The position numbers were made by a program, and so were the translations under genes. The notes beneath the pieces are model-generated. The model did not search any database. It had not been told where the DNA came from and saw only the letters and a program-made list of their open reading frames with translations. DNA of 39,627 nucleotides from Gammaproteobacteria bacterium (lineage in GTDB: Bacteria > Pseudomonadota > Gammaproteobacteria > SZUA-152): the NCBI GenBank assembly GCA_022340845.1, contig JAJDNG010000206.1:1-39627 (forward strand), read 5' to 3'. Every line of letters starts with the position of its first letter. The first letter of the stretch is position 1. Positions 4,367-36,604 of the stretch are shown one piece after another.

Positions 4367-6793
4367 CTATTCGACGTTTATGGTGGCAATCTCCGACTGC
4401 TCCGGCGTCATCGGCACCCTTGCCTGGATATGGTGTCTGCCCGGTTGAAGATGCAAGCGCGTCGAATAAGGATAGTCCACCAACTGGTACGGTTCGTTGT
4501 CCACATACCAAACGACTTGCGCAATGGGCGGCTCAACCGTGGCATTCAGCGCAATACTGCTGCTCTGCTCCGGGGCATCCGGATTGCGCAGGATGTGTAA
4601 GCCGTTTTGCGGAGACGTTATGTCAATCTTGACCCGTAAATCACGCGGCAAAGCGGCGGGTCTATCAATTGTTTGCGGTTGAACCGCTTTTTGAAAAGCC
4701 ACCATTTGTTTTTTCGCGATCCAATCGGCGTAGCGCGGGGGAAGATTCACCATGGTTTGAAGCCGCTTGAATTGAGGTGGCGTTTGAATTGATGCCGGTA
4801 ACCCGGTACGCACATCCACTGACATCCGCACATAAACATTATCCACCTCTTCAGGCACCTTACCCACCGGCAACCACTCCCGATAGACAAATTCACACGC
4901 CGTACCGGCCAATTTCCCACTGGTGGCACATAAATCCGCGCTGACATAATTGTCCGGGGCAGGGAAACTGACATCCGTAAGGCCATGGCGCTGTCCGGCG
5001 TGCAAATGCAACATAATCTGACGAGCCAATACTGCGGCACTGCCGGCGCCGTTTAATCTATCCATGGGCCGGGGAACGGCGTGACCGACCCAGACTCCCA
5101 CAACATAATGTTTTGAATACGCAACCGTCCAAGCATCCCGATAACCTTGCGATGTACCCGTCTTCAATGCCACGGGGAAAGCATATTCCGTGGTTCCCAT
5201 CCTCGGAAAAGTAGGCAACCGCGCGCTGGGATCGGATAAAAACAACGTAATCAGTCTGGCGACGGCCGGGGAAAATAGTTGCTCACCAGTCAAGTTGTCA
5301 TTGTTGTTACCATTATTGGCCGTGCGCAGCCATTGTAAATCACGATAACGGCCTTCATTGGCCAACGCTGCATAAGCACGCACTACATCTTGCAGCCGAA
5401 CCGGGAGACTGCCCAGCGCCATACCTTGACCGAAATGCCTGGCCGGCAAGCGATGCTGATGTAAAGCAAGTCGGCCGAACAAGCCATAGGTCTCATCCAG
5501 CCCCACCCGATTCAGTACACGGATAGCGGGAATATTACGGGAATTACCCAACGCCTGGCGGGGCAACATAGGCCCCAGGAAACGATGATCGGAGTTGCGA
5601 AAGGGATACTGCGCCATGGGTAAATCGTCGATAATGGTATTCGCGGTAATGACGCCCCGCTCCAGCGCCAAGGCATAGATAAACGGTTTAAGTACGCTGC
5701 CTGATGAACGCTTAATTTGGGTAAAGTCAATAGCACCGTTGTTGGATTCATCGAAGTAATTATCTGACCCTATCCAGGCCAGCACTTCATTACTGCGTCT
5801 ATCCAGGACTATCGCTGCGACATTGCCCGCGCCTTTTGCTCGCCAGCTCTGCATCAACTGGCGGCTGAGTTGGGTTACATTTTCCTGCAACGTCAAATCG
5901 ATACTCGCGGTCACCAATGGAGAAGCCGGTGTTTGGCGCAATTGTTCCTCCAACTTAAGGATGGCATGAATCGCGTTGCGCGGCCGCTCCTGGCGGTGCG
6001 GCAACCGGATCGTGCGTATTTCCGCCACTGCCAGCGCCATTTCGGCGTCTGATATGACCTGGCCGGCGTGCAAACTTTGCAACAAACGTTTCCCGCGCTG
6101 TATGGCCCGATAGCGTCCTTTGGGCGTGAACGGATTCATTCGACTGGGTGACTGGGGAATGGCTGCCAGAAAGGCGATTTCCGCCCAGCTTAAATCTTCT
6201 ACCGGTTTGTCAAGATAGCGCCGCGCAGCGTAGCCGATACCGTGAATACGATTACCATAAGGTACCCAGCGTAAATAGTTGGCCAATACTGCCTCGCGCC
6301 CATACCGCAGCGTCATGATGACTGCTGCCAGAGCTTCTATGGTTTTGTTGACATAGCTGCGTTTAGCGGGATGTTGCAACCGCACCAATTGCATAGCTAA
6401 AGTAGATGCCCCGGAGATACGCTGCTGATTCGACATGTTTTGCCATACTGCTCTGCCTATGGCCAGTGGGTCCACACCGGGGTGCAACCAGAAGCGCTGG
6501 TCTTCCAGGGCCAGGGTGGCGGTTACGACACGCGACGGCAATTCGCCCATTGGCCAGAAGCCATATCCGGTATAGCCTTCACTTTCCAACTCGGCCATGA
6601 AAGTACCGTGACGGTCTGTAATCAGCGAACTGGCAGCGGGTGTCACTATGTCGGATCGCCAAATGGCCGCAAGCATGATCGTTATTGCAGCCAGCAATCC
6701 CGTGCCCAATAAAACCTTCGCAACGGTGCGATAGCAAGGTAGGGTCAGTTTCACGCCCTGTTTATTAACCAATGATGCTAAATTCAATGCCAT
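4367..6793 (-). CDS. pbpC: Penicillin-binding protein 1C (transglycosylase/transpeptidase)
   Basis: TG domain EDQRFWLHPGVDPLAIGRA; TP motifs SVLK (SxxK), SRN (SxN), KTGTS; C-terminal BiPBP-like domain. Confidence 0.95.
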   Translation of the reverse strand: MALNLASLVNKQGVKLTLPCYRTVAKVLLGTGLLAAITIMLAAIWRSDIVTPAASSLITDRHGTFMAELESEGYTGYGFWPMGELPSRVVTATLALEDQRFWLHPGVDPLAIGRAVWQNMSNQQRISGASTLAMQLVRLQHPAKRSYVNKTIEALAAVIMTLRYGREAVLANYLRWVPYGNRIHGIGYAARRYLDKPVEDLSWAEIAFLAAIPQSPSRMNPFTPKGRYRAIQRGKRLLQSLHAGQVISDAEMALAVAEIRTIRLPHRQERPRNAIHAILKLEEQLRQTPASPLVTASIDLTLQENVTQLSRQLMQSWRAKGAGNVAAIVLDRRSNEVLAWIGSDNYFDESNNGAIDFTQIKRSSGSVLKPFIYALALERGVITANTIIDDLPMAQYPFRNSDHRFLGPMLPRQALGNSRNIPAIRVLNRVGLDETYGLFGRLALHQHRLPARHFGQGMALGSLPVRLQDVVRAYAALANEGRYRDLQWLRTANNGNNNDNLTGEQLFSPAVARLITLFLSDPSARLPTFPRMGTTEYAFPVALKTGTSQGYRDAWTVAYSKHYVVGVWVGHAVPRPMDRLNGAGSAAVLARQIMLHLHAGQRHGLTDVSFPAPDNYVSADLCATSGKLAGTACEFVYREWLPVGKVPEEVDNVYVRMSVDVRTGLPASIQTPPQFKRLQTMVNLPPRYADWIAKKQMVAFQKAVQPQTIDRPAALPRDLRVKIDITSPQNGLHILRNPDAPEQSSSIALNATVEPPIAQVVWYVDNEPYQLVDYPYSTRLHLQPGRHHIQARVPMTPEQSEIATINVE

Positions 6794-6895: not shown

Positions 6896-9800
6896 CTACT
6901 GACTGTTTTCCGAGACATCAGCAGGTGTTATTTCTATCCTCGCGCCCGCCGAATTACCCCGCACCGCCTCCTCATACATCATTTCCGCATAGGCCGCCGG
7001 TTGGGTAAAACTACCGGGCACCGTGGCGCGGGTTCGGAAATAAAAATCGTAATTACCCCTGGGGAGACTGTCATAGTAAAAAGCCACTTGATCGTCCAGA
7101 TAGGCAGCGTAGCTGGGCGCTAAAGTAATCCGGCCGTTGGGTTCGGCTTCTGGCGGCGCGGTGGCAAGACGCGGATTCAATATCTCCAGTCCTGCCGCCA
7201 AGGGCACCACGACGGCAACATAAGTGCGGTCGACAGAGTTGACGATCTGCACATGGTCTTCGATCACATCCCCGACATTTAATGCGACAGATTTTGAGGC
7301 CGTATCCAGTGCAATGCGTTGCATGGGTTGCTCCGGTGCAACCAATTTGAATAACTCGCGGTTGACCACAAAACCCTGCGCCAGCGGTTGTACATGACTG
7401 CCATCGGCTTGGGGTACAAAGCGGGTTTCCGCACGAATCACGACAGCTTGTTCACCGGCGGTATATTGGATTAACCCCGCTTTCGGCTGGATGGACACTG
7501 TTTTCACCAAGCGTTCGTTATCACTGAGTTGTATGGATTGCCGGGCTCCGTCCAGTTGGATGGTGACATCCTGCACCGTCTGCTGATCGCCAGGCCGCTC
7601 TGGCGGCGGTTGCATGAACTGGCTGAGCGCCAACAACGCCGACGCATTGGCGTTGGTGCTGCCCCAACCATCGTCTTTACCCAAAGTGGTGAGGCCATTG
7701 ACCAGGGTTTGCAAACGGGGATGTGAATTATGGGTTTGCTGTAATGCAAGCACTATCTCCGCCATGGTTCGGGTTTCACTGGGTAACACCAGCGTATTCA
7801 GTGGCAGGCTGTTGGTTTGCAAACCGCCGTAGATTTCATCGCCACGATACAATCTGAAAACCAATCCTTCCCACAAGCGTTGGTTGAGTTTTTCCAGCGT
7901 AGGCGCGGCGGACTCGCCCATATCCTTGGCCAGGACCCGCATGACTCTTGCGGTGCTTTCCAGATTCAAATAGCGGGATTTTCGGGCCAGTTCCGCTGCA
8001 TAACTGGCATTGGCTTTGCCGGCCGCTGATAACGCCCACAATGCCATGGTTCGTTCGGTATAATGCTCGCCGGTGATAAAATAACGATAATCGGAACGCA
8101 ACGATTGCTGCAGACTTCGGGTAAGCTCGTCCAACAAAGGCTCGTCAATGGGATAACCGGCATCACGCACTTCCAGCAGGAATTGCACTACCCACGCGGT
8201 TAATGATACGTAGCCTGTAGAGCCGGGCCAATACCCGGCCAAACCATTGCTGTCAATGACATCATTAACCCACTGCAAGGTTTGTTGAACGTTACGGTCT
8301 ATATCGCTTTGCTCGTATTCGCCGCCCAATAATTGGCGGAAATTTTTTACCGCGAGAAAACCCCGCGTCCGGCTGATACGTTGTTCAGTACATCCATGAG
8401 GATATTCCATCAAGTAGTTTAGGCCCGCTGCCATTTTTATGAGTCCGGGCTGATTGGATAACAACACACTGCGCTTAAACGTACCGTTGCGCACGGCTTC
8501 TGTTATGGCGGGCAATTCAAATTGCTCGCCGGCGGCGAACTGTTTAATCTGCCGTTGAATCGTCGCCTGACGGTCCGGATGCAGTGGTATGGATACTTCG
8601 AAAGCATCACGCGCTTTGTCATCCTGCCGTTCCACCGCGCAAGTGAATTTCACTTCGTGGTTGCTTAACTCGCCTTTTTCATTGTATTGAGGCGTTGGCA
8701 CACTGACATCAAAATCCAGGCGCCGGGGTTTGGCCTTCTCCCAAGTAAATTTCTTCACGCGGTCGCCTTGCAACGCCAAACCCTCTGTTTTCACCGTGGC
8801 CAGGCCTTGGCCGCCTTCGCCTTCCACGATACGGCCGATAGCACTCGCCGTGAAACGGTCACCTGGGCGGACAAAACGTGGCAATGCCGGTTGCACTATG
8901 ACCGGCAAACGCACCGCAATGCTGCCCTTGGCAAAACCGAAACGGCTGGCGCCACTGATGGCCTTGGCGCGCAGTTTGAAATTGGTCAGGTTATCCGGCA
9001 TTTTGATACTGATACTCGCTTTGCCGCTGTCATCAATCGTTATCGCGGGATTAAAATACGGCACGGCTTTAAAGTTCTTCCGTACTGTCACTTTATCGAT
9101 AAGATCGGCGGCTTCCGCGGCCACGGCGTCACCTCCGCCGGGTTGTTCTTCAAACGGCAAATGACCAAACGCCAGATTGCGCGTATCCCGAATACCGACC
9201 ATGGATTGTGGACTGCTGATAAAATCCGGCAGCGGATCCAGACGTTGTTCCTTGGCCAATGCCAGCACCGCCTGATCCACCAACCATAGGGTGACTTCTC
9301 CGGGTAACGGTTTGCCGTGATTGTCCTGCAAGGCAATTTGAACGCTAATTTCTTCTCCGGGCATGACTTTTTCGGGCGCTTGCACCTGCACATCAACCCT
9401 ATGCGCAACCGGTTTGACTTCCACCCACTGGGTCGCCGCCACGGTGGCCGGCTTGCCTAAATCGATTTGTGTGAGTGAAGGTGCGCCATCGCCTACCCTG
9501 CCCCGCATTAACACAAAGTGCACTGGGATACGCGGTGTGTATTCAGTATCTATGACGAACTGGAAGGTTGCCGAACCACCGCGCACATCAATCCACTCAT
9601 ATCGGTTTTTATCAGGTGCTTCGATGATCGCCAGCGCCCGCGCCTTTTGATAAGGACTTTGCAATATCAAGCGTGCGGTGTCACCTGGTTCGTAATCCGT
9701 CTTATCCGTGCTCACGGTAAATACCGACGCCGGAGCCTGCGCCCAGGTCACCGGCTCGTCACCACCTACGTAAAGATCCACACTGACCACCTGGGCACGG

Positions 9801-12818: not shown

Positions 12819-15800
12819 CTATTGATCAGACGGCGTGTCAAGCTTACGGCCTGATTGCTGCAAATAGTGTTGAATAACCTCACTCGGCGGGCCAGCCGGC
12901 GGTCGCTCCAGTCCCACCAACGCAGGGCGAATACGTACTGGCAAGCTATTCGCCGGCACTGTAACCGAGAACACATAATGACCGGGCGCCAACTCCGGCA
13001 TGTGCACCACACCACGGCTGATAATGTTGCCCGCGCCGTCCATCAACATACCGCTGACCACGTCCGCCGAAGCTTGCACACCCAAACCTACCGGACCTTG
13101 TTGTTTGACTTCGAAACCATACATCCTGGTATCACCGCCACTGAGCATGGACTGCGGCCCATAACCTTCCTGAATAGGCACAATGGGCAGGGTACTGATC
13201 ATCGCCATACCCTCCATGGCCGAAGATCCCAGACTTTCCAGCGCAACATAATTGGGACCTGCGGGAAGATATACCGCATAGTTCATGCTGTGAGGATGTG
13301 CTTCGACAATTTCTCCGCCGTCAGCATAAACTATGCGACTGATAAGCGGCGTATCGCTTCGCAGCAGCAACTGCATGCCGTGCGTTGCTGCGACTTGAAA
13401 CGCTGTCCTTTCTCCCTGCAGTGGAATACTTTGGGCGGTTGTCACATCCAGTAGTGGAACCGGCATATGCGGCTTATCGGTAGAAGCACTATCCAACCAA
13501 GCGTAAATAACCCCGGGCTGATGATTTATAAGCAATTCGCCGGGAGCGCGAATGGCCAATTCCCTGCCCTGCACTATCTGGCCGTTGGATTGTAGAAAAG
13601 TGCCTCGGGCAGCGCCGCGTATCCTTATAATGGTGTTATCCGCATTGAGATGAACAGGTATTCGCAGTTGTCCAATGTTTGTTACGTGTCGTTTGAATAT
13701 GCGGCCCGGGACCAAAGATGAGCCTGTTTCCGGTGAGTCTGAATCCATGTGGTCTACAGTGGCGATGGACAACGCGAAGTGCAGAGCTTCGGCGCCGGCA
13801 TTGAAAATCAGGATTTTATCGGCCCGGCTGTAGGCCGTTTCGTTCAGCGGCATCTTGCCTGACCAATGGGTGCTGAGAATCGTATCTCCCTGCAAACACA
13901 CCGCAGCCGCTTGCGCCGGTAATACCAAACCGATTCGCTTCATTCCCCGGGGCAGATTCAGAGGGATCGCTGTTAACGTGGATAACGCATGTTCGAACTC
14001 GCCGGAGCTTATAGTTTTGCTTTTATCAACGGTAAACAGAAGCCGTCTTACACTGACCTCCAGCGGTGCGGCGATCGACGCTGCATTCCAAAGGTTAACA
14101 ACGGGACTTCTTGGCTCAAGTAACACCGAAACCGCCGACTGCTGAGCAACGGCGAAGCGTCGGATATCGCGCGGCGTGTCTGAGGCAAGCCCGGTATTCA
14201 CCAACTGCACACCCGCCAGCCCGGTGCGAGACTCTGCGATGACCAACATCGGCCGCTCCGCGCTCCCCATATCCAATTGGCTGGTTTGCGATGCAGGTGC
14301 TAGCAACTGCAATGTGTCGGTCGCACGCCCATCACCCATGGCCTGGTCTAGAACCACCCGTTTTACGATGAGTTTGGATGCGGCGTTATTTTCCCCAATA
14401 GGCCTGGCGACCCACAATGTAGTGCCCGTCGCTACCATCAAGCCGTTATAGGATTCGCTCAGCGGTAGTCCGGGCTGTGCGGACCAAAGCACATCATCGG
14501 CATCGGCCACCGTCATTACACCTGGGCGGGTAAGTTCGATTGCAGCAACGGCAAAACGGGGTGGTGTTTGAGTGGGAGCCGAAACGGGTTGCAGGGTTAT
14601 ATCGCTAGCGCGTGTCGCCTGCTCACGAAAGCGGTGGGGTTCTACCGCTTGCGCCTGAACCGATATGGGTGCTCCGCGCCGGTCCAACGACCAGATTTTA
14701 AGCCGATAAGCCTGTGTACCGGAAGGACTTACCGGAACCAGCAATCGAGCGTGTTTTCCGTTGTGCCACGCTATTTCCTTCCAGTCGTTTGGATGTTGCA
14801 AATCACCGGTTGCAGCTTCCAGGCTTAAGCCAACCGCATCATCAGAATCCGCCTGGGCGATCAACAGCGATGCCGTAACCGGTAATGGCAAGGGATAAAC
14901 ATGTGCATCTGTATCGTTAACCGTTGTGTTAAACGGTAATGACTGCGCGTCGCCATAGCGCACATCTGGGGAACGCATCAATACTTCTGTGGATTGAGTA
15001 TCACTGCCCACCGCTTCCACCTCCAGACGATACTCGCCGGCAGGCAGTTTTTGTGCAATAAAAAAATTCCAGTCATTACTACGATCATCACCTTTTGCCA
15101 CCAATGTGCCGTTTTTGTCGTATAACCTGGCCCGCACATCGTTTTGTCCGTATGACCATAGTTCGATCAGGTTTTTCTGGCCGACAGCGACAGCAATGCT
15201 GGCAGGCACAGGGACATGACGCTGTTGGCCGACCATCAGTTGCCGGCTGGATACCTTCAATTGATAGTTAACAAGATTGTTCCGGCGCAGATTTAGTACG
15301 GCCAGTTGATAGTCGCCCGCCGCCAATGTGCCTTGCCACGGTTTCACCGGGGTGGAGACAGCGATAATGTCCTGAGTCTTACTGTCGCGGCGCACCAGTT
15401 CTCCGCGCATGTCATTATTTAAGTCAATGTGCACCTCAGCCTCAGCGGGCAGTTGAAACCGCCAAATATCCGGCCGACGAGTCTTACCGCTTTGCGGCTC
15501 CCGCCATTCATGTTCTACGCTTTGGTCAATCTCGATCCTATGGGGTCCATGACCCTCATATCGAATGGGTTCGGCAACGGCCTCAAGGGTCGCCACCAGC
15601 CGGGCGTCAACGGCTTCAGGGCGGATGACCATGCGGTAGTCCCCAACATTAAACTCGCGGGTGATATCAGCGGCAATATTAGGCCGCTCGATAGGCCAAC
15701 CATCGGCGTCTTCCAGGCGCATGACATAGGTACGCCCGGCGCCAATGGCGCGCACGCGATATTTTCCTTTTTGGGGAATAGTAAATCGATATAACAAACC

Positions 15801-18086
15801 CTTGCCGGCTTTTAACGTTGCCCTGGCAGCGACTTCCGTGGTCAATCTGCCGCCGTCTTCAATGGCGGTGCGGGCCAGACTCACCCCTAAATGGCCACGG
15901 GACTTATTTCTTGGCTCCACAGTCAGTTGATAATCGCCCTCCCGCAAATACTGCTGTATGAGGAAGTTGCGTCCGACACCATTGGCATTTTGTTTCACCA
16001 AAGAGGGAATCGTGCGGGTGCGTAGATTGCCTTGTGTTTCCAACAATCCCGTGCTCTCCAGTCGATACAATGCGGGTTTGTCCACATTCAACGACAATGT
16101 CGTTTCCTGATCACGATCCAAGTCGTAATATTCCGTACGTGCCGCGGTTAAGCCGGGGAACTCGGGGATGGCGCTTTTTATTTTTGGCGGAAGCGCTGGA
16201 AGCGGTTCAGATTTACTCAGCCGCTTGGCGGCGAATTCCAAGGAATAATTGACAGTGGTACTGCCGGAGTTTCGAACGGAAACACGATATTCACCACGAG
16301 ACAGATTTAAATTCTCTTTCCATAGCGCACTGTCCACATTAGCGGATAAAGACAGCGGCAGCGCTGCACCCTCGGTCGTTAGTGCGCGCACCAGCCCCGC
16401 TTCGGGGACTCTAACCGGAATGGTAACCGTCTCATTAGCGCGCTGCATAACGGGCAAGGCCGCCGACAAATCCACAGGCACCGGCCGTAGCACAACACCC
16501 GCTTTGACACCCGGTTGTTGATTCAAATACAAGGTGTAATAGGAGTCGCGATATAAATCAACCACACCATAGCGGGTGGCCCCTGCGACGCTCGTGGTGG
16601 AATTGTCGCGAAACCGCAAATAACCCTCTTTTTCCACCGTCAGCGTGATTATGCCTTTTAGTTCGGGCCGCACGGTTAACACATAAAAGCCCGCATCGAG
16701 ATCCCACTTATAACCGCTGTCTTCGAACGGTGGCGCTTCATAGTCTCGGGGTCTTGAAGTCATAAATGGTTCGATGCGATATTTTGCGCGAACACCTTCG
16801 CCTTGCCCCTGAATAATATAGTTGCCCCGTTCGATTATTTCGAGATATAGCGTTAAGGTATCCAGCAGGTTGAAACGCCGCTGGTACCTATGGGCGCGAT
16901 TAAGCGGTATGACGCGGGCTTCCATCAACCGCTCCGACTGATTCCATGGCCGGCGCGTCAATACGGACGTCGCATCAACCGAGTCCTCGGCGGCACCGGA
17001 GTGTATCGAGCTGAGCCAATAACGTCCCTCTTCGTTGATGGAATAGCGCCAGCGTTTTTCGAAATGCTGCAAAATATAGCTCTGACCGGCCATTGCCGTT
17101 ACACTAATCAAGCGATCCGATTTTTGCGTGGCCAGTTCCAGTTCGGCGACCGGTGGTATGAGTTTTTTAGTGATAGTAGCGGTTCTTCCCAAAGGGGAAA
17201 ATGCGTCGTGTTCCCGGAAAGTATCCGCGGTTATGGAGATCGCCGTCGCCTCGGGTACGCTGAGGTGAAAATAATTACTGTTTCCCGGCACCAGATAACG
17301 GTCGGTGCCAAACGGGCTAACGGTATAACGCCGTTGCCCGGTTTCCTGCAAACGGGGTATACCGTAGCGAATATGCAAGGGGTGATCATCGCTTTGCTCC
17401 GTCCAGGGCTGGGCGGGTCCGCCATAGGCGGTTAGCAAATACAGGCCGGGTTGCAATTTCGCGTTAATCTGCATGGCTTGCAGCGGCTTGTCCGGATCGG
17501 GCACAATGGTCTTTGCCTCGGGAATTATATCCAGCAGCCAACTACCGTCTTTCCAGAGACGCAAATCCGCCAGGTTACGGCCTGCCGCTTCCACGGCGAT
17601 GGTTTCCGGTTTTTCAATGTGCAGCCAAAACGAGCGCTGTTGCAAATCTTCCAGGCTTAAGGAGATGTTTTTGAGTTTGACCAGTTGTGGGATGTTGTTG
17701 GCATGCAGTTCGGCAAATGCATGCACCGAAAGCTTGCTCTGCCCGGTTCCGGATTCATGGGCATAGGTGATAATTTGGTAGTCACCGTGTTCGAGAAACA
17801 GATCCAGGCGGCCGTCTTGCTCGCCTGCTATGCCAGCGATATCACCCGGCCCTGCCATGCGATCAACATATTGCAGCGCCGTACCCTGATCGCTGTCGAC
17901 CAACACGGCATAACGACCAAATTTGCTTATGTTGAGTATAGTGGAATGCTTTCCCTGCGCCGGCAACAGGTTGGACACCAGGCGTGCCGATCCGATTTGC
18001 TGATTTTGGTTTGAGGATTGCGCGTAAGCCTGAGTAAATCCGAAAAAAGCGACGCAGTACAATGCCAATACATTTATTGTTTTCAT
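12819..18086 (-). CDS. Giant exported protein of unknown function with recurrent PPC-like GxYxL beta-sandwich motifs
   Basis: Long ORF; likely start at 18086 (MKTINVLALYCVAFFGFTQAYAQ signal peptide) rather than 18176; at least 11 copies of a GxYxL-type motif (HGDYQII, PGLYLLT, AGFYVLT, RGEYRVS, EGDYQLT, AGDYQLA, AGEYRLE, PGHYVFS etc.). Confidence 0.85.
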   Translation of the reverse strand: MKTINVLALYCVAFFGFTQAYAQSSNQNQQIGSARLVSNLLPAQGKHSTILNISKFGRYAVLVDSDQGTALQYVDRMAGPGDIAGIAGEQDGRLDLFLEHGDYQIITYAHESGTGQSKLSVHAFAELHANNIPQLVKLKNISLSLEDLQQRSFWLHIEKPETIAVEAAGRNLADLRLWKDGSWLLDIIPEAKTIVPDPDKPLQAMQINAKLQPGLYLLTAYGGPAQPWTEQSDDHPLHIRYGIPRLQETGQRRYTVSPFGTDRYLVPGNSNYFHLSVPEATAISITADTFREHDAFSPLGRTATITKKLIPPVAELELATQKSDRLISVTAMAGQSYILQHFEKRWRYSINEEGRYWLSSIHSGAAEDSVDATSVLTRRPWNQSERLMEARVIPLNRAHRYQRRFNLLDTLTLYLEIIERGNYIIQGQGEGVRAKYRIEPFMTSRPRDYEAPPFEDSGYKWDLDAGFYVLTVRPELKGIITLTVEKEGYLRFRDNSTTSVAGATRYGVVDLYRDSYYTLYLNQQPGVKAGVVLRPVPVDLSAALPVMQRANETVTIPVRVPEAGLVRALTTEGAALPLSLSANVDSALWKENLNLSRGEYRVSVRNSGSTTVNYSLEFAAKRLSKSEPLPALPPKIKSAIPEFPGLTAARTEYYDLDRDQETTLSLNVDKPALYRLESTGLLETQGNLRTRTIPSLVKQNANGVGRNFLIQQYLREGDYQLTVEPRNKSRGHLGVSLARTAIEDGGRLTTEVAARATLKAGKGLLYRFTIPQKGKYRVRAIGAGRTYVMRLEDADGWPIERPNIAADITREFNVGDYRMVIRPEAVDARLVATLEAVAEPIRYEGHGPHRIEIDQSVEHEWREPQSGKTRRPDIWRFQLPAEAEVHIDLNNDMRGELVRRDSKTQDIIAVSTPVKPWQGTLAAGDYQLAVLNLRRNNLVNYQLKVSSRQLMVGQQRHVPVPASIAVAVGQKNLIELWSYGQNDVRARLYDKNGTLVAKGDDRSNDWNFFIAQKLPAGEYRLEVEAVGSDTQSTEVLMRSPDVRYGDAQSLPFNTTVNDTDAHVYPLPLPVTASLLIAQADSDDAVGLSLEAATGDLQHPNDWKEIAWHNGKHARLLVPVSPSGTQAYRLKIWSLDRRGAPISVQAQAVEPHRFREQATRASDITLQPVSAPTQTPPRFAVAAIELTRPGVMTVADADDVLWSAQPGLPLSESYNGLMVATGTTLWVARPIGENNAASKLIVKRVVLDQAMGDGRATDTLQLLAPASQTSQLDMGSAERPMLVIAESRTGLAGVQLVNTGLASDTPRDIRRFAVAQQSAVSVLLEPRSPVVNLWNAASIAAPLEVSVRRLLFTVDKSKTISSGEFEHALSTLTAIPLNLPRGMKRIGLVLPAQAAAVCLQGDTILSTHWSGKMPLNETAYSRADKILIFNAGAEALHFALSIATVDHMDSDSPETGSSLVPGRIFKRHVTNIGQLRIPVHLNADNTIIRIRGAARGTFLQSNGQIVQGRELAIRAPGELLINHQPGVIYAWLDSASTDKPHMPVPLLDVTTAQSIPLQGERTAFQVAATHGMQLLLRSDTPLISRIVYADGGEIVEAHPHSMNYAVYLPAGPNYVALESLGSSAMEGMAMISTLPIVPIQEGYGPQSMLSGGDTRMYGFEVKQQGPVGLGVQASADVVSGMLMDGAGNIISRGVVHMPELAPGHYVFSVTVPANSLPVRIRPALVGLERPPAGPPSEVIQHYLQQSGRKLDTPSDQ

Positions 18087-18323: not shown

Positions 18324-19214
18324 ATGCCCCATTACCGGCACTTAAGTCACGCGGGCAATCACGGCGATGTGCTAAAACACGCTGTTTTGTGCCTAATAGT
18401 CGAACAGTTGCTTGCGCGAGCGAATCCATTCGTTTATATCGACACTCATGCCGGAGCAGGTCTTTACGATTTATGGGCGCCAGCAGCACAAAAAAACCGT
18501 GAATTCGAAACCGGCATTCTTCGCTTATGGCACCACAACGACCTACCTGCCGGATTGCACACCTATATAGACATTGTGTACAAAATGAATCCTTTCGGTG
18601 AATTACGCTGGTATCCAGGATCACCGGCTCTGGTAGGGCAACTCATGCGCGCGCAGGACAATGCCCACTTGTTCGATGTGCACAGTAGTGAAATAAAAAC
18701 CCTGCAGAATTTGTTTAACTCAACTCATAATGTTCATGTGACCCATGCTGATGGTCCGCTTTCGCTAAACACCTTATCGCTGCCGCAGCAACACCAGGTG
18801 TTGGTATTGATAGATCCGTCGTATAAAACCAGAGCCGACTTTGTATTTGGCAGCAATGCTTTGAAAGTAGCCCAAGGCCGGTTTGCTGAGGGCGTATTTA
18901 TGTTATGGTATCCCGTTATCGATCGAGGGGAAATCCGCCGTTTGGAACTTGATGTTTGCTCTAGTGGATTAGGCAATATACTAATGGCCGAACTCAATGT
19001 GGCAGCCGACGACACGTCGGAAAAGACACGGGCAATGACAGGATCGGGAATGATTGTCATCAATCCGCCCGTAAACTTGAAAGAAAATTTACAACAGATA
19101 CTGCCTTGTTTAGCGCGCCGATGTATAGCACGGCGTTTTACCCCCGCAAGCCATATCGAAAATCCGGGCACCTGGCGCCTTTCATCGCTAGTATCCGAAA
19201 ATATGGCCCCATGA
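18324..19214 (+). CDS. rlmJ: 23S rRNA (adenine(2030)-N(6))-methyltransferase RlmJ
   Basis: MPHYRHLSHAGNHGDVLKHAVLCLIVEQL...FVYIDTHAGAGLYDL; LIDPSYK motif; matches RlmJ family layout. Confidence 0.95.
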   Translation: MPHYRHLSHAGNHGDVLKHAVLCLIVEQLLARANPFVYIDTHAGAGLYDLWAPAAQKNREFETGILRLWHHNDLPAGLHTYIDIVYKMNPFGELRWYPGSPALVGQLMRAQDNAHLFDVHSSEIKTLQNLFNSTHNVHVTHADGPLSLNTLSLPQQHQVLVLIDPSYKTRADFVFGSNALKVAQGRFAEGVFMLWYPVIDRGEIRRLELDVCSSGLGNILMAELNVAADDTSEKTRAMTGSGMIVINPPVNLKENLQQILPCLARRCIARRFTPASHIENPGTWRLSSLVSENMAP

Positions 19215-19365: not shown

Positions 19366-20883
19366 ATGTATAACCGGCTTACCCACATACTGCTATTTTT
19401 AATGCTCATAACCTTGGGCGCATGCTCGACCACCATGCGACTTTCCTTGGAAGAACTTCGAGTCCAATATCCGGAATTGGCGAAGCTGGAGCAACGCTTG
19501 GATGAAGCCAAAACCAAAGGGAAAGATTTGCTTGCCCCCGAAAGTTATCAAACCGCCCTGGATGCGTATATCAGTGGTTTTACCGCAGCCCAGGAAAACC
19601 AACGGGAAATCGCCTTACAGTATGCAAGAGAAGGCATGGCGGCCCTCGATACCGCCTTGCAAACCGCACAAACCAGTGAAAAAATTCTTTCCGAAGTGCT
19701 CTCAGCACGCAGCAGGGCCCGTAAAGCCGGCGCAGAAAGTTTCTACGCGCAACAGATGCAGGAACTGGACAAAGAACTCACTAAAATCGGTCACTTAATT
19801 GATAATAACCAGATAGAAAAAGCCAAAGAACGGCGGCCCGAATTGCAGAAAGCCTATCTGGATCTTGAGTTGCAGGCACTCAAACAGAGCACGATTGAAT
19901 CCGCCCAAAAGGCCATTGCCAACGCCATTGCCAATGATGCTTCTAAACTTGCCCCAAAAACCATCGCTAATGCGCAAGAAGAATTAACCTTGGCACAGTC
20001 GGTTTTGGAAGTCGACCGCACCAACCGGGACAAAGCCAATGCGCACGCCACCCGTGCCACCATACTGGCTAACCGCAGCATGCACATCGCCGAAGTGGTA
20101 AAAGAATTCAGGCGCCGCGACTATTCCGGTGAGGATATTGTGCTCGCCTACCAGAATGAACTGAGTAAACTGGGGCAAGCAATGGACGAGGAGTTGTTAT
20201 TTGACAAACCCAATGAGCAAACCTTGCAAGATATGCGCAACAGTATCAGCTCGCTGTACGAATCCAATTCCGACAACAAGCGCCGTGCCCTTGAGTTGGA
20301 GGCCGAACTGAGCCAATTAAACGAAGCTCATCAGCAAGAGCTGATTAGCTTGCGGCAACAACACGCTCAAGACATGGCTCAATTGGAAAGCCAATACACA
20401 GGCAAAATTTCCATGCTGGGTAAAACTCAGGAACATCTGGAAAGAATGCACGAAGAACAACGTGCGCGCTTCGAACGAGTCCAGGCGCTTTTCAGTGATC
20501 GAGAAGCAAACGTCTACCGGCAAAAAAACAACGTCCTTATTTCGGTACACGGATTCAAATTTCCAGTTGGCAGTGCTGAAATTCGCCCTGAGAATTTTGC
20601 TCTGATGAATAAAATCGTCAAAGCCATTGGTGAATTCAAATCATCCAAAATCATGGTCTCCGGTCACACCGACTCCACCGGCAGCGCCGATATGAATAAA
20701 ATCCTGTCCGATCAAAGAGCGAAAAACGTGGCAAAATTTTTCACTGAAGTCGGTGGTATTGACGGAAATCGCATTCAGGCCAAAGGCTTCGGACAGGAAA
20801 AACCCGTGGCCAGCAATGCTAGCGCTGAAGGCCGGGCGCTCAACCGGCGAGTGGAAATCCTAATCGTCAACGACGGCCGCTAG
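19366..20883 (+). CDS. OmpA-family lipoprotein with N-terminal DUF4398-like helical region
   Basis: Lipobox LGACSTT; coiled-coil middle; C-terminal OmpA peptidoglycan-binding domain (KIMVSGHTDSTGSADMNKILSDQRAKNVAKFF...RRVEILI). Confidence 0.9.
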   Translation: MYNRLTHILLFLMLITLGACSTTMRLSLEELRVQYPELAKLEQRLDEAKTKGKDLLAPESYQTALDAYISGFTAAQENQREIALQYAREGMAALDTALQTAQTSEKILSEVLSARSRARKAGAESFYAQQMQELDKELTKIGHLIDNNQIEKAKERRPELQKAYLDLELQALKQSTIESAQKAIANAIANDASKLAPKTIANAQEELTLAQSVLEVDRTNRDKANAHATRATILANRSMHIAEVVKEFRRRDYSGEDIVLAYQNELSKLGQAMDEELLFDKPNEQTLQDMRNSISSLYESNSDNKRRALELEAELSQLNEAHQQELISLRQQHAQDMAQLESQYTGKISMLGKTQEHLERMHEEQRARFERVQALFSDREANVYRQKNNVLISVHGFKFPVGSAEIRPENFALMNKIVKAIGEFKSSKIMVSGHTDSTGSADMNKILSDQRAKNVAKFFTEVGGIDGNRIQAKGFGQEKPVASNASAEGRALNRRVEILIVNDGR

Positions 20884-29919: not shown

Positions 29920-30879
29920 TCAGCGGCGCTTGATGTCCTGGATGCGTTGTTTGGCAAGCCGTGCGGCGGTGGTGTCGGGAAACATACTGACTATGTTGCT
30001 GAGCACCGCTTCGGCATCTGCGCTTTTGCCCAGTTCCTGATAACTGAATCCCATTTTCAACATGGCATCAGCCCGCTTTGAGCTTTTAGGGTAGTTGTCC
30101 AGGACTTTGTTGAACTCTTGCAAGGCCACGTCGTAACGGCGTTGTGCGTAGTTGGCCTCGCCCAGCCAGTATTGGGCGTTGTCAGCGTAATCTGCCGTTG
30201 GGTAGGTTTCCAAATAGGCTTTAAATGAAGCAATAGCCAGTTCATAACGGCCGTCCTTGAGCAAATTAAACGCTCTGTCGTACGCTTCCCTTTGCAGCTG
30301 TTTAGTCTGCGGGGAAACCACGCTGGCTGTTGCCAACGGTACTCCAGTGGAAGGCAACGATGTACCGCTTGCCGATGAGGCTGATGGATCTGACCCCATG
30401 GCGCTTGAAGAGGCTCCGCCAGCGCCGGCACCCGTTGAGGCTGAACCTACCATGGTAGGACTGGTACCGGGTTGCCCCTTGGCCAGATTCGAGGTTTTTT
30501 GCTCGACCTGAGAAATGCGCCGGTCGATGTCCACATACAGGTCTTTTTGCCGCTTTTTAATGTTATCCATTTCATGGTTGAGTACTTCCATCTGCCCGTT
30601 GATGGTTTGCAATTCCTGTTGCAAACGATCGAGGCGGGTCAATACTTCCACCATAGACTGGTTATCCAAACGCCGTTCGATTTTCTCCAATCTCGCCGCC
30701 AATTCTCCGGATGTCGGCTGAGCCGCTGCATCGATCACCGGCGCAGGCTCGCGAGCCGCCGCGGTGTTGATCATCGCATAAGCCCCTCCCAGCACAGCAA
30801 TCAATGCAATGTGCCTGAACCAGTGAGCCGGTCCGTTGCATCGACGTCGCAAAAGTTCGGAGAAAATCATAAGCAACAA
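29920..30879 (-). CDS. cpoB: Tol-Pal system protein CpoB/YbgF
   Basis: N-terminal coiled coil, Ser/Gly/Ala linker, C-terminal TPR (AYDRAFNLLKDGRYELAIASFKAYLETYPTADYADNAQYWLGEANYAQRRYDVALQEF); downstream of pal. Confidence 0.93.
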   Translation of the reverse strand: MLLMIFSELLRRRCNGPAHWFRHIALIAVLGGAYAMINTAAAREPAPVIDAAAQPTSGELAARLEKIERRLDNQSMVEVLTRLDRLQQELQTINGQMEVLNHEMDNIKKRQKDLYVDIDRRISQVEQKTSNLAKGQPGTSPTMVGSASTGAGAGGASSSAMGSDPSASSASGTSLPSTGVPLATASVVSPQTKQLQREAYDRAFNLLKDGRYELAIASFKAYLETYPTADYADNAQYWLGEANYAQRRYDVALQEFNKVLDNYPKSSKRADAMLKMGFSYQELGKSADAEAVLSNIVSMFPDTTAARLAKQRIQDIKRR

Positions 30880-30885
30880 AACCTC

Positions 30886-31467
30886 TTATCGATTGGCGTA
30901 AACCAGTTCGGCGCGGCGATTCATGCTCCAAGCACTTTCGTCGTGACCTAATACCGCCGGACGTTCTTCACCGTAGCTAACCACCCGTACTTGCGCCGGA
31001 GATACGCCGTTGGCGATCAACAAACGACGCACGGCATCGGCACGACGCTCACCCAACGCTAAGTTGTATTCACGGGTACCGCGCTCATCGGCGTGGCCTT
31101 CCAGAGTAAAATTGACCTGTGAATTGCTCGCCAAATAGTCGGCGTGAGCGCGAATCACCGGCAACGCATCATCCCGGATGGCACTGCTGTCAAAATCAAA
31201 ATACACCACTCGTTGCGAGAGCAAGTTATTGGGGTCTTCAAACGGATCCATCTGGGTCTGAGGTTCCATAGGTTCTGCGGTGGCCGTTTGATCGTCAGCC
31301 CTTTCAGTTGATGCTGGTTCGGAGGCTTCCGTCGAAGCCGAAGCAGAGGTCTCTGCGGATGCCTGGTCTTCAACCTCTCCGGTAGTTCCACAACCGGCTA
31401 ACAGCACAAACAACAAGAATATCGCAGGCACTGTAGCAAGCGTCATCCTGGTAATTACCTTCATCAT
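30886..31467 (-). CDS. pal: Peptidoglycan-associated lipoprotein Pal
   Basis: Lipobox LLAGCG; VYFDFDSSAIRDDALPVIRAHADYL...LEGHADERGTREYNLALGERRADAVRRLL. Confidence 0.97.
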   Translation of the reverse strand: MMKVITRMTLATVPAIFLLFVLLAGCGTTGEVEDQASAETSASASTEASEPASTERADDQTATAEPMEPQTQMDPFEDPNNLLSQRVVYFDFDSSAIRDDALPVIRAHADYLASNSQVNFTLEGHADERGTREYNLALGERRADAVRRLLIANGVSPAQVRVVSYGEERPAVLGHDESAWSMNRRAELVYANR

Positions 31468-31496
31468 TTATAACTCCTTATATAATTGTTAACTTA

Positions 31497-32855
31497 TTAA
31501 TTGTTGAATGGAGACCATGCAGGTTCCCGCACGTCTTCTTGGTAAGACAAACTCTGTTTGATTTTGCCGTCCACGGACACGGCAGCCAATTCTCCCCTGC
31601 GTCCTGTTGTTGCGTAAATTATCATACTTCCATTGGGAGCAAAACTGGGGGATTCGTCCAATCGCCCTTCGGTCAGTATCTGCATGGCTCCCGAATCCAG
31701 TTCCATGGTAGCAATCTGGTAGCCATTACCATTTCCGCTGTCATGCACCATGGCAATCATTTTGCCATCCGGTGATACGGCAGCTTTTAAATTTTCCCGT
31801 CCCTCAAATGTCAACCGTCGCGGCTTGCCACCATCCGCCGCCACTCGATATAGCTGCGGACGCCCACCGCGGTCGGAGGTGAATATTATTGACCCGCCGT
31901 CCGGCGTCCATACCGGTTCCGTATCAATGGCCCAATGGGTGGTTAATTTGCGCATCTTCTGGGTTTTTAAGTGTAGAGTATATATGTCTGCGTTGCCATT
32001 TTTTGTGATAGTAAACGCGAGTTTATCGCCTTTGGGTGACCAGGAAGGCGCACCGTGCAATCCGGAAAGCGGTGTTTTGACCTGCTCCCGTTCGGTAGTT
32101 TGCCAGTTCTGTATATAGACTTTTTGTGCGCCACCTTGCTCCAACGAGGCATACGCAATACGTTTTCCATCCGGCGACCAGGAAGGCGACATAATAGGTT
32201 CTTTGGAACGTAGGATTTCCTGAGCGTTTTCACCATCGGAATCGGCAATCCATAGCGAATAGCGTTTCTCCCGAAAATCACCTTCTGCGGTGACATAAGC
32301 AATTCGCGTGGAAAACGCACCTTTTACACCGGTAAGTTGCTCGTAAACGATATCGCTGATTTTGTGCGCTGCAGCACGCAACGTCTTTGAGGTTGCGGGA
32401 ATTTTATAGGCGACCATCTGCTTGGCCTGAAATACATCCTGAAGCCAGAAACTAATGGTGTAATTATCCGGTCCGGTATTTTCCACCTGACCGATCACCA
32501 GGCTTTCGACACCCAAAATACGCCAGTTTTGATACTTAATGGTGGCGGGATCGGTGGGCTTGGAAAGCATGTCTTTGACAGGGAACGCCTTGAACTGACC
32601 AGTGCGCACCAGATCGTTACTGACGATTTGGGCGAGGTCTTCGCTGGGCGGCACGGCGCCGCTGACCCGAAACGGTACCACGGCGATGGGTAACGCCGCT
32701 TCTATGCCTTGGGTGATGGTAATGGTCAACGGCTTGGCGTACGCGCCCGCCGTCAAGGCCAGTAAAATCAAAAGCACACTACTTATTACGACCGGCTTGC
32801 GGATTCTTGCGGCTGGCGCTTTTGTGAATTGTGTCGACGTATTTTCCATTTGCAA
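31497..32855 (-). CDS. tolB: Tol-Pal system beta-propeller protein TolB
   Basis: Signal peptide, N-terminal TolB domain, WSPDGKRIAYAS / FTSDRGGRPQLYRV propeller repeats. Confidence 0.97.
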   Translation of the reverse strand: MQMENTSTQFTKAPAARIRKPVVISSVLLILLALTAGAYAKPLTITITQGIEAALPIAVVPFRVSGAVPPSEDLAQIVSNDLVRTGQFKAFPVKDMLSKPTDPATIKYQNWRILGVESLVIGQVENTGPDNYTISFWLQDVFQAKQMVAYKIPATSKTLRAAAHKISDIVYEQLTGVKGAFSTRIAYVTAEGDFREKRYSLWIADSDGENAQEILRSKEPIMSPSWSPDGKRIAYASLEQGGAQKVYIQNWQTTEREQVKTPLSGLHGAPSWSPKGDKLAFTITKNGNADIYTLHLKTQKMRKLTTHWAIDTEPVWTPDGGSIIFTSDRGGRPQLYRVAADGGKPRRLTFEGRENLKAAVSPDGKMIAMVHDSGNGNGYQIATMELDSGAMQILTEGRLDESPSFAPNGSMIIYATTGRRGELAAVSVDGKIKQSLSYQEDVREPAWSPFNN

Positions 32856-32915
32856 TTGTTGGCTTTGTCCTGTGGATAATTTTGTAGAGTGATTTATAAA
32901 ACGTGTTTTGGCGGC

Positions 32916-33902
32916 TTATGAAGTCTTTTGGTCCGGATCGAAAACAAAAGTAATTTCCCGGAATCGTTCAAACAACGCCGGATCCGCCGGCAGCGGTAAT
33001 GGTACCGCTTTTTGTACTGCGGTTTCCACCGAACGGTCAAAAGAGGCATCACCACTGCTTTTGGTGACCTCCACGTGCATGACATCTCCGCCCGGGATTA
33101 AACGTACGTAAACCGTGCATTTCAAGCCGGTTTTGGAGGTCGCCGGCTTACGCCAGACATTCTCCACTTTTTCGCGGATATAAGCCGTGTATTTTTGCAC
33201 GACGCTAAGCGCTTGCTGCTCTTGCTGAGCAGCCTGCAGCTGTTGTTCTTCCTCAATGCGCTTGCGCCTTTCATCTTCTTCACGCTGCATCTGTTCTTGC
33301 AACAAGGCTTCTTCCAATAAGCGCTGTTCGCGTTTGCGGCGATCTTCTTCCAGTTTGCGCTGACGCTCTTGCTCTTCGCGCTTGAGCTTTTCCTGCAACA
33401 AACGCTTTTCTTCCTTGGCTTTGGCTAATTTGACCTCTTCATCCTTGCGCTTTTTTTCCAGTTCCTGGCGTTTTTTCTCCAACAACTCCTGTTTGCGGCG
33501 TTCCAGGTCTTGCTGCTTTTTTAAGTCCGCCAGGCGTTGTTCTTCGGCGATGCGCTTTTGCTGTTGTTCTTTCTGTTTTTTCTGCTCAACTTGTTTTTGT
33601 TGTTGGATTTCGGCCAAACGCTGCTCTTCCTGCTTGCGGCGTTGCTCAGCGGCTTTGGCTTCGCGTTCCAGTTTGCGTTTGCGCGCTTCTTCTTCGCGTA
33701 TTTTACGGGCTTCTTTTTCTTTAAGTTCTTGTATTTGTTCTTCGACCTTTGATTCATCCACCACGACCGCGTTGACAACGTTTATTTGCGGTTTTTCTTC
33801 CTCCGGTGCCCAATCGAAACTCACAAACAGCACCGCCGCCATCGCAGCGTGCACTACAATCGCGTAAAACAACGCCAATGGGTTTTTAAAAAACGATTTC
33901 AC
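32916..33902 (-). CDS. tolA: Cell envelope integrity protein TolA
   Basis: N-terminal TM, long Lys/Glu/Arg/Gln helical region, C-terminal TolA domain (YTAYIREKVENVWRKP...CTVYVRLIPGGDVMHVEVTKSSGD). Confidence 0.95.
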   Translation of the reverse strand: MKSFFKNPLALFYAIVVHAAMAAVLFVSFDWAPEEEKPQINVVNAVVVDESKVEEQIQELKEKEARKIREEEARKRKLEREAKAAEQRRKQEEQRLAEIQQQKQVEQKKQKEQQQKRIAEEQRLADLKKQQDLERRKQELLEKKRQELEKKRKDEEVKLAKAKEEKRLLQEKLKREEQERQRKLEEDRRKREQRLLEEALLQEQMQREEDERRKRIEEEQQLQAAQQEQQALSVVQKYTAYIREKVENVWRKPATSKTGLKCTVYVRLIPGGDVMHVEVTKSSGDASFDRSVETAVQKAVPLPLPADPALFERFREITFVFDPDQKTS

Positions 33903-33925
33903 TACGTCAACTCTGGTTTTCTCTG

Positions 33926-33986
33926 CCGGGATTATAGATACCGGATAATATTTGCTCCGGGAATTTCTCTTCCGGACCGTTATTTA
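33926..33986. repeat. Degenerate CCGG-anchored tandem repeat (spacing 15/16/15 bp) in the tolR-tolA spacer
   Basis: CCGGGATTATAGATA / CCGGATAATATTTGCT / CCGGGAATTTCTCTT / CCGGACCGTTATTTA. Confidence 0.4.
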
Positions 33987-34435
33987 GATTTTTTTTTCTT
34001 CACCGGTTCCGGCGCTTCGGTAATCAATCCCACACTGGGGGCACCTGCTCGTTGTAACAAGGTCATGGCATAGACCACCTTGGAGTATTCCACCCTGCCA
34101 TCACCGCGAATCATCACCGGTGTCGCGGGTTTGTGTTTTAACACTGCAGCGGTCAGCGTTACCATGGCTTGGTCATCAATAGGCTTGTCCGGATTGTCGC
34201 CCACGCTGAGATAATAATCGCCTTCCTTATTCACAGTCACAATCAGTGGTTCCGCAGCATCTTTATCGATAGGCTCGGCCGATGCTTGTGGCAAGTCCAC
34301 TTCCACACCCGTGGTCAACAATGGCGCAGTAATCATAAAAATCACCAACAATACCAACATGACATCAATATACGGCACCACATTGATGTCCGACATGGGT
34401 TTGCGTTTGGTGCGAGGATCGAATTGACTCGCCAT
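33980..34435 (-). CDS. tolR: Tol-Pal system protein TolR (ExbD family)
   Basis: KRKPMSDINVVPYIDVMLVLLVIFMITAPLL. Confidence 0.96.
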   Translation of the reverse strand: MASQFDPRTKRKPMSDINVVPYIDVMLVLLVIFMITAPLLTTGVEVDLPQASAEPIDKDAAEPLIVTVNKEGDYYLSVGDNPDKPIDDQAMVTLTAAVLKHKPATPVMIRGDGRVEYSKVVYAMTLLQRAGAPSVGLITEAPEPVKKKKSK

Positions 34436-35109
34436 TAGCGGTGCGCCTGTCGGTTTAAAACACTGGCAAATTCTTCAATAAACGCCTGGTATCGACCAAT
34501 TAAACGTTCCAAATCTGCTGAGTAGCGGTTGTAGCTGATTACCGCCGGAATGGCTGCAAAAAGCCCCATGGCAGTGGCAATCAGCGCCTCGGCAATTCCG
34601 GGGGCCACATGAGCCAGGGTTGCCTGCTTAAGACCACTCAACGATCGGAAGGAATTCATAATTCCCCACACCGTACCGAACAAGCCCACGTAGGGACTGG
34701 TGGAACCTACGGTCGCCAAAAACGGCAAACTGGTTTCGAGTTTATCGATTTCCCGGGAGAGAGACACCCGCATGGCACGCTGGGCGCCATCTAAAATGGC
34801 GGCCGCATCGGCGCTTTCTTTTTTGCGCAAGCGAACGAATTCTTTAAATCCCGATTCGAAAATCACCGCCATGCCCGACTGTTTCGAGCGTCCGGAGGTC
34901 ACTTGACTGTACAATGCGTTCAAATCACCACCCGACCAGAACTTTTCCTCAAATTCGTCGGCGGCAATACGGGCTTTTTTCAAAATCCGCGCTTTTTGAA
35001 ATATCATCGTCCAGGACATCAACGACACGATTAACAACAACGCCATTACGGCTTTTACCATAATGCTGGCGTTTAAGATTAGAGTAACTAATGACAGATC
35101 AGTTTCCAC
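34435..35109 (-). CDS. tolQ: Tol-Pal system protein TolQ (ExbB family)
   Basis: SLPFLATVGSTSPYVGLFGTVWGIMNSFRSL, IAEALIATAMGLFAAIPAVISYN. Confidence 0.97.
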   Translation of the reverse strand: METDLSLVTLILNASIMVKAVMALLLIVSLMSWTMIFQKARILKKARIAADEFEEKFWSGGDLNALYSQVTSGRSKQSGMAVIFESGFKEFVRLRKKESADAAAILDGAQRAMRVSLSREIDKLETSLPFLATVGSTSPYVGLFGTVWGIMNSFRSLSGLKQATLAHVAPGIAEALIATAMGLFAAIPAVISYNRYSADLERLIGRYQAFIEEFASVLNRQAHR

Positions 35110-35512
35110 CGAAAATCTCCATGCTTATTCCCTTGGGCAGCGGTTTGGGTGTAAATGTGCTGGCGGACAAACTGACAACGCGAATTTGCGCGTCGCACAA
35201 TAAAACGGTGTTATCCTCTGCCGGGGTTATTTTTTGTTCAAATGTGATGCTTGCTTTACCGGTTTTGGCAATGCCGGCGGTCACATTAAGTAGTTGGTTG
35301 AATCGTGCTGGTTTGCGGTATTCCACTTGCGCAGAACGCACCGCGAAAATGAGATCGTGTTTTTCGACTAAATAATCCTGCTCCACCCCCATTGCCCGCA
35401 GCCATTCCGTTCTAGCTCTTTCCATAAATTTCAAATAGTTAGCGTAATAAACCACGCCACCATTGTCAGTATCCTCATAGTAGACACGTACCGGCCACAT
35501 AAATTCCTTCAC
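35099..35512 (-). CDS. ybgC: Tol-Pal system-associated acyl-CoA thioesterase
   Basis: VRVYYEDTDNGGVVYYANYLKFMERARTEWLRAMG hot-dog thioesterase motif. Confidence 0.95.
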   Translation of the reverse strand: MKEFMWPVRVYYEDTDNGGVVYYANYLKFMERARTEWLRAMGVEQDYLVEKHDLIFAVRSAQVEYRKPARFNQLLNVTAGIAKTGKASITFEQKITPAEDNTVLLCDAQIRVVSLSASTFTPKPLPKGISMEIFGGN

Positions 35513-35515
35513 TGG

Positions 35516-36604
35516 TTATTTTTTCTCCACATGCTCATTGGCAAATAAATCGCCGCTATCCTGTTCCAATAGTGGCTGCAAAATTTCAGTCCTTTTCGGC
35601 GCGGCCAATCCGAAATGCAAATACGCATTGACCGTGGCCACCCGGCCCCGGGAAGTGCGCATTAAAAATCCCTGTTGGATGAGAAATGGTTCCAGGACGT
35701 CTTCGATGGTGCCTTTTTCTTCTCCAATGGCAGCCGCTAGATTATCCACACCCACCGGCCCGCCGTCGAATTTTTCTATTACTGCCAATAAGAGTTTGCG
35801 GTCCAGCATGTCGAAACCGTGTACATCCACATCAAGCAAATCCAATGCCCGCGACGCCACGTTGTCGGAAATATGACCATCGGCCTTAATTTGCGCATAA
35901 TCACGCACCCGGCGCAACAAGCGATTGGAGATTCGGGGTGTGCCCCGGGAGCGTTTGGCGATTTCCTGCGCACCTTTTACATCGATGGCCACATCCAGGA
36001 TGTTTGCCGAGCGTCGCACAATGTGGGTCAAATCGTCCGCCGAATAAAACTCCAGACGCTGCACGATACCAAACCGGTCACGCAACGGAGACGTGAGCAA
36101 GCCCGCGCGGGTGGTCGCTCCCACCAAGGTAAATGGCGGCAAATCCAGCTTTACCGAGCGGGCCGCCGGGCCTTCGCCAATCATGATGTCCAGTTGATAA
36201 TCTTCCATGGCGGGATAGAGGACCTCTTCCACCACCGGGCTCAAGCGGTGAATTTCATCCACAAACAATACGTCGTGGGGCTCCAAATTAGTCAGCAAGG
36301 CGGCTAAATCGCCGGGTTTTTCCAGCACCGGTCCTGAAGTCTGTTTCAGACCGACCCCCATTTCGCTGGCGATAATGTGCGCCAACGTGGTTTTACCCAA
36401 TCCTGGCGGTCCAAATATCAAGGTATGGTCCAGCGCTTCGTGGCGCTGCCTGGCGGCGGAGATAAAAATAGTCATTTGCTCACGCACCGCCGGTTGACCA
36501 ATATATTCACCCAGCGTTTTCGGCCGTATGGCGCGGTCCATGGCTTCTTCGCGGTGTTCCCCACCCACAGGGTGTGCGCTGATCAGTCGGTCGGGTTCAA
36601 TCAT
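35516..36604 (-). CDS. ruvB: Holliday junction branch migration helicase RuvB
   Basis: [16 protein letters not shown] Walker [11 protein letters not shown] Walker [21 protein letters not shown]. Confidence 0.98.

Follow-up and report, generated by a model that had tools for sequence, protein, structure and literature searches.

A giant exported beta-sandwich protein as a putative third component of a bacterial alpha-2-macroglobulin and PbpC module

In a 39,627-nucleotide gammaproteobacterial contig (JAJDNG010000206.1, which as a whole forms the window analysed here), a gene for a giant exported protein, termed X, stands ahead of the genes for alpha-2-macroglobulin (A2M) and penicillin-binding protein 1C, and the question is whether X works together with these two. 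The idea of a 'trap and repair' pair formed by two genes, those of bacterial A2M and PBP1C, has been under discussion since 2004, and Budd et al. reportedly defined two classes of bacterial A2M in that year. In the published hypothesis, A2M traps intruding proteases and PBP1C repairs the wall (PMC5764988, PMC3328433, PMC4498604). We propose, with a probability of roughly 0.55, that X is a third, periplasmic member of an envelope-defence module together with A2M and PbpC, complexing with non-lipidated A2M and positioning it near the wall. Our literature searches found no publication describing X, a passing mention in older work being conceivable, and it appears to be a third part of the 'trap plus repair' system not studied before. 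The features concerned are collected in Table 1.

Table 1. Positions of the three genes and of their main features in the window
Feature	Coordinates	Strand	Remarks
pbpC, penicillin-binding protein 1C	4367..6793	(-)	Transgly, Transpeptidase, BiPBP_C
Type I alpha-2-macroglobulin, 1,948 aa	6896..12742	(-)	MG2/MG3/bait/A2M/bMG10
A2M thioester motif CTEQ, residues 1451-1454	8381..8392	(-)	sequence motif
Gene X	12819..18086	(-)	ATG at 18086; first gene of module
X signal peptide, residues 1-22	18021..18086	(-)	read by eye, without lipobox
X domains 1-9, residues about 30-1040	14967..17999	(-)	better conserved N-terminal block, AF2
X domains about 10-15, residues 1041-1730	12897..14966	(-)	more divergent beta-sandwich array, AF2
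X C-terminal helix and tail, residues 1731-1755	12822..12896	(-)	conserved PPxGPPxEVIxxYLQ (alignments)

The initial annotation, made from the letters alone, had described an exported protein of about 1,756 residues built from recurrent GxYxL motifs; the open reading frame and its size stood, and the exact figure had counted the stop, the product being 1,755 aa and about 190 kDa. The N-terminal signal that it reported is present, of the signal-peptidase-I type as judged by eye (MKTINVLALYCVAFFGFTQAYA, with Q following the cleavage point), and among 46 aligned X proteins the lipobox pattern had no true match and one false match inside an LprI domain. All 11 listed motifs were recovered by script together with two more (FGRYAV at 57 and EGRYWL at 354), which brings the GxYx[LIVMF] motifs to 13; over 2,000 shuffles the mean was 1.15 and the highest count 5. 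In an alignment of 46 homologs drawn from many phyla, 12 of the 13 motifs have their glycine, and often the tyrosine as well, conserved in at least 85% of the sequences, and therefore we regard the GxYx(hydrophobic) pattern as selected rather than due to chance. The single cysteine noticed in the mature part is C1397, the only other one (C11) lying in the signal peptide.

AlphaFold2 (AF2) models were computed for residues 26-1045 and 838-1755 using 45-row alignments, and reached a mean pLDDT of 92.4 (pTM 0.83) for the N-terminal half and 88.8 (pTM 0.75) for the C-terminal half. Both halves were predicted to be almost wholly beta with a short C-terminal helix, found at residues 898-907 of the C-terminal-half model, and the strand pattern recurred about every 100 residues, giving ~15 domains, an approximate number parsed by us from the AF2 strand lists. 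Twelve of the 13 closing-strand motifs fall in the N-terminal block, and the last domain (GHYVFSV) is conserved again within the otherwise more divergent C-terminal array, with the conserved helix and tail behind it as a candidate docking peptide. In profile-profile comparison, with segment boundaries guessed from the AF2 models, the pairs D6-D7, D7-D16, D6-D9, D9-D16 and D7-D9 were homologous at 96-97% probability, the last domain matching D7 at 96.9%. The structure-prediction check proposed for repeated domains thus returned repeated beta-sandwiches by both routes.

Foldseek gave a probability of 1.00 for matches of the half models to 5iku, 4gz9 and 3kq4, the proteins at this level being the collagen-binding domains of ColG (5iku), neuropilin a1a2b1b2, the CUB domains of cubilin and the SIDT1 ectodomain; A2M/C5 arrays were mostly low-probability matches, and no structure matched the chain as a whole (query TM <= 0.15). 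The tandem collagen-binding domains of 5iku, which we take to have the PPC-type fold, matched both halves at probability 1.00. Of the N-halves of 46 homologs, 12 had a match to PPC (PF04151) itself at E<=0.1, the best (2.7e-5) being near the cutoff, and in the X of the source genome the best PPC match was 16.4 bits against a gathering cutoff of 25.9. The suggested resemblance to PPC domains is borne out by these weak matches and by the fit of 5iku to both halves, and in the models X is a tandem array of ~15 PPC/CUB-like beta-sandwich domains. X differs from clostridial collagenase collagen-binding domains and other PPC or CUB proteins, with which it shares the single-domain fold, in having about 15 domains in tandem and no peptidase.

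No Pfam or NCBIfam model reached its cutoff in the X of the source genome, and the named family of known role that would have spoken against the initial annotation did not turn up. The weak matches of its homologs were to PPC, Y_Y_Y, PKD, CarboxypepD_reg, bMG6 and similar beta-sandwich families, with none to the mag/yfa partner families in Pfam scans of X and its homologs. In a sequence search of solved structures, X alone had no match and the profiles had only chance-level ones. X defines a large protein family currently annotated 'hypothetical protein'. A scan of genome contigs with the single X sequence gave no relatives, and an eight-row alignment used as query gave 74 loci; the linkage survey, made with tblastn-based scripts, comprised 81 X loci.

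When the neighbourhood was characterized, the 76-bp spacing between the X stop and the A2M start, the shared direction and the following pbpC were all confirmed. In 63 of the 81 X loci the next gene downstream, on the same strand, encoded an A2M, about 18 of these 63 being closely related Rhizobium-like loci. Among the 18 loci lacking an adjacent A2M gene, 17 have contigs that break off inside X or no more than about 0.7 kb from it (one is masked at that point), and in the other (L099) no A2M gene occurred in the 5 kb after X; this locus was rejected as a counter-example, since that A2M and a pbpC are on other contigs of its genome. Further, pbpC followed the A2M gene in 54 of the 63 loci, and the nine others comprised seven contig ends, a locus with 5.7 kb of other genes between A2M and pbpC (L015/G014, contig C21, 15034-20748) and a locus with pbpC on a separate contig (L051). 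The proposed co-occurrence survey therefore found that X homologs nearly always have an A2M gene linked to them. No other recurring gene was seen in the flanks of the X loci, and a fourth conserved gene of the module was rejected, since the clusters that do recur resemble spurious ORFs or signalling and transporter proteins of a generic kind.

The linkage also held in the reverse direction. In 369 Gammaproteobacteria genomes, a profile of the X-linked A2M clade exceeded 1,600 bits in exactly four positive genomes (G000, G061, G223 and G286), which are also the four that carry X (a partial X match in G187, 93 positions at E 2.7e-4, was left out of the count), and the next-best A2M scored 260 bits. 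Therefore, we regard the X-linked A2M as a separate clade that never occurs without X in this sample. In many loci the X stop and the A2M start overlap by 4 bp or are 2-8 bp apart (judged from candidate start codons), the gap of the source contig being among the longer ones, and no terminator-like site is listed on the gene strand in its X-A2M or A2M-pbpC gap. Pairwise distances, closely related Rhizobium rows included, correlated with a Spearman coefficient of 0.97 for X and A2M and of 0.90 each for X and PbpC and for A2M and PbpC, with shared vertical descent contributing to all three. The gene overlaps and the co-evolution point to X, A2M and pbpC as one unit.

PbpC passes the PBP_1c equivalog TIGR02073 (507.8 bits, cutoff 494.2), and the A2M carries GCTEQ at residues 1450-1454, a CxEQ thioester motif that sets it apart from type II A2M (mag/yfa), which has no CxEQ and has mag partners. 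The A2M profile matched the E. coli and Salmonella A2M structures (5a42/4u48) at about 1e-38. The source A2M has extra N-terminal Ig-like domains and a signal peptide lacking a lipobox, and a lipobox, the mark of lipid-anchored A2M, was found neither in it nor in 29 relatives. Since neither X nor A2M has a lipobox, anchoring at the membrane or wall needs a partner.

Of 38 tree rows in which the motif could be read, 34 retain the thioester cysteine; the other four are all Rhizobium (GSTEQ), and one further strain has GPTEQ. The loss of this cysteine was seen in L029-L031, L036, L037, L068, L071, L074, L076, L077, L083 and others, with GPTEQ in L031, in a Rhizobium lineage whose X carries an LprI domain. 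Covalent trapping by that route is therefore not available there, and the loss may reflect a shift to non-covalent trapping or to another job.

Compared with E. coli yfhM-pbpC (ECAM; Sa-A2M in Salmonella), the source set likewise has a CxEQ thioester A2M followed by a pbpC that passes the PBP_1c cutoff, and differs in being headed by a third, giant gene; the X-linked A2M is longer than YfhM, has the extra Ig-like domains and lacks the lipid anchor. Over its main matches it shares only about 21-27% identity with the other A2Ms in genomes of the source organism's family. Like the P. aeruginosa magABCDEF operon, the module encodes A2M beside a dedicated periplasmic partner; unlike that operon as described, it includes pbpC, its A2M has a thioester and X matches none of the mag/yfa partner families in Pfam scans. 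In that operon the type II A2M MagD is held in place and stabilised by its operon partners, notably MagB, and in P. aeruginosa without MagB, MagD is lost or mislocalised (PMC5764988). By analogy, we infer that X may do the MagB-equivalent job for non-lipidated type I A2M.

We consider X a partner of A2M because the order X-A2M-pbpC on one strand is found in nearly every locus that is long enough, because the partners persist elsewhere in genomes with a broken-up set, because X and one A2M clade each occur only together with the other in the 369 Gammaproteobacteria, because their genes often overlap or nearly abut and their distances correlate, and because MagD and MagB offer a precedent (PMC5764988). 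Of the roles suggested in the initial annotation, a large structural periplasmic partner of the macroglobulin is the best supported, by the repeated domains and the near-invariable A2M linkage. We presume that X would serve as an assembly and recognition platform, a ~190-kDa array of ligand-binding-type beta-sandwich domains, which would bind type I A2M and place the non-lipidated protein near the cell wall and PbpC. Upon breach of the outer membrane, in the order of events we envisage, incoming proteases would cut the A2M bait and be caught through the thioester, PbpC would meanwhile rebuild peptidoglycan, and in some lineages X would contribute an LprI domain. Should X prove to be an obligate third subunit, the trap-and-repair system would have a separate lineage with its own large partner, spanning about ten phyla and Rhizobium plasmids, including plant symbionts tractable in the laboratory; X would then offer a way into the question of how A2M without a lipid anchor stays at the wall and why it is paired with a wall synthase.

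The LprI domain (PF07007) is located at the N-terminus of X behind the signal peptide in Rhizobium, in further Alphaproteobacteria and in one Competibacteraceae genome, above the Pfam cutoff in nine loci (L029, L043, L068, L081, L096, L098, L099, L102 and L109), and is absent from the source X in the Pfam scan. On the X tree, scored without L102, it has been gained or lost at least five times. LprI was first reported in an M. tuberculosis lipoprotein conferring lysozyme resistance, and ScwA, a periplasmic LprI-domain protein, controls peptidoglycan hydrolase levels in Salmonella; ScwA is a stand-alone protein, unlike the LprI domain fused to X (PMC7933661). Since the family is linked to lysozyme resistance and peptidoglycan control, the fusions tie X to the cell wall.

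The same observations bear on other explanations. X might be mainly a chaperone or stabiliser of uncleaved, thioester-protected A2M, with no recognition role of its own, as suggested by the loss or mislocalisation of MagD without MagB (PMC5764988), by the position of X as the first protein made and by its strict pairing with one A2M clade; we find this doubtful, since an array of repeated ligand-binding-type domains amounting to 190 kDa would make a large chaperone, the LprI fusions direct attention to the cell wall, and MagB has a transmembrane helix that X lacks. The fusions would also suit an envelope-damage or ligand sensor, or an adhesin, that binds glycans or wall fragments beside A2M and not on it, and PPC/CUB-type folds elsewhere bind collagen, glycans and proteins (the 5iku, neuropilin and cubilin matches). 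However, a free-standing sensor is hardly to be expected in association with one A2M clade only or in such close co-evolution with it, and neither a signalling domain nor a transmembrane helix was seen in X, which makes this role unlikely. A more far-reaching reading, in which the module would be a bacterial counterpart of complement, X as a long array of CUB/PPC-like recognition domains binding a pattern of damage or of an intruder and delivering or triggering a C3/A2M-like thioester effector, with wall repair by PbpC coupled to it, we regard as quite unlikely.

Protease trapping by X itself, which the initial annotation had offered as an alternative, found no support, as X has neither a thioester motif nor a bait-region domain call. 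A second trap, or a sacrificial decoy or bait array, would fit a gene that adjoins a protease trap gene, the bMG6 (macroglobulin domain 6) matches of 4 of 46 X N-halves (best 8.1e-6) and the low-probability structural matches to A2M/C5 arrays, but no X member matched a bait-region or thioester-domain family and the X domains are confidently folded in the AF2 models, not flexible; X as a second macroglobulin was rejected on the same domain calls, and a trap or decoy of any kind is very unlikely. The least probable case, which we scarcely entertain, is that X is a passenger with an unrelated envelope role in a merely historical operon association: few genomes carry the module (4 of 369 Gammaproteobacteria), yet the linkage is held over many phyla at 20-40% identity with nothing else in the flanks kept, and the partners persist even where the module is split. 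X as a partner of A2M remains our preferred reading.

Homologs of X occur in about 10 bacterial phyla, the record titles naming Pseudomonadota, Acidobacteriota, Thermodesulfobacteriota, Myxococcota, Fibrobacterota, Eisenbacteria, Schekmanbacteria, Fermentibacteria, Aminicenantes, SAR324 and Spirochaetales; these groups are diderm. The source organism and most carriers are uncultured, and X was present in 2 of the 24 genomes of the source organism's own family, the others having only distant A2Ms. The X tree clustered by phylum, with 10 label changes against a minimum possible of 8 and a shuffled mean of 15.2, and therefore X seems to be an old family passed on mainly by descent, with modules on plasmids in Rhizobium. 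On the conjugative plasmid pRSpC104a of Rhizobium sp. C104 (L032, 11482-25436), all three genes are split into shorter frames, from poor assembly or decay. The locus recorded as 'Mycobacterium sp. KBS0706' (L069) shares 87-89% identity in X with Inquilinus limosus; we treated the record as mislabelled, its name probably being an error.

In the source contig, a gene for a 505-aa OmpA/DUF4398 protein (19366-20883) lies divergent from the module, past rlmJ (18324-19214), and a tol-pal type cluster (ruvB, TolA-like, TolB, CpoB/YbgF-like) is located at 29920-36604, about 12 kb from the module.
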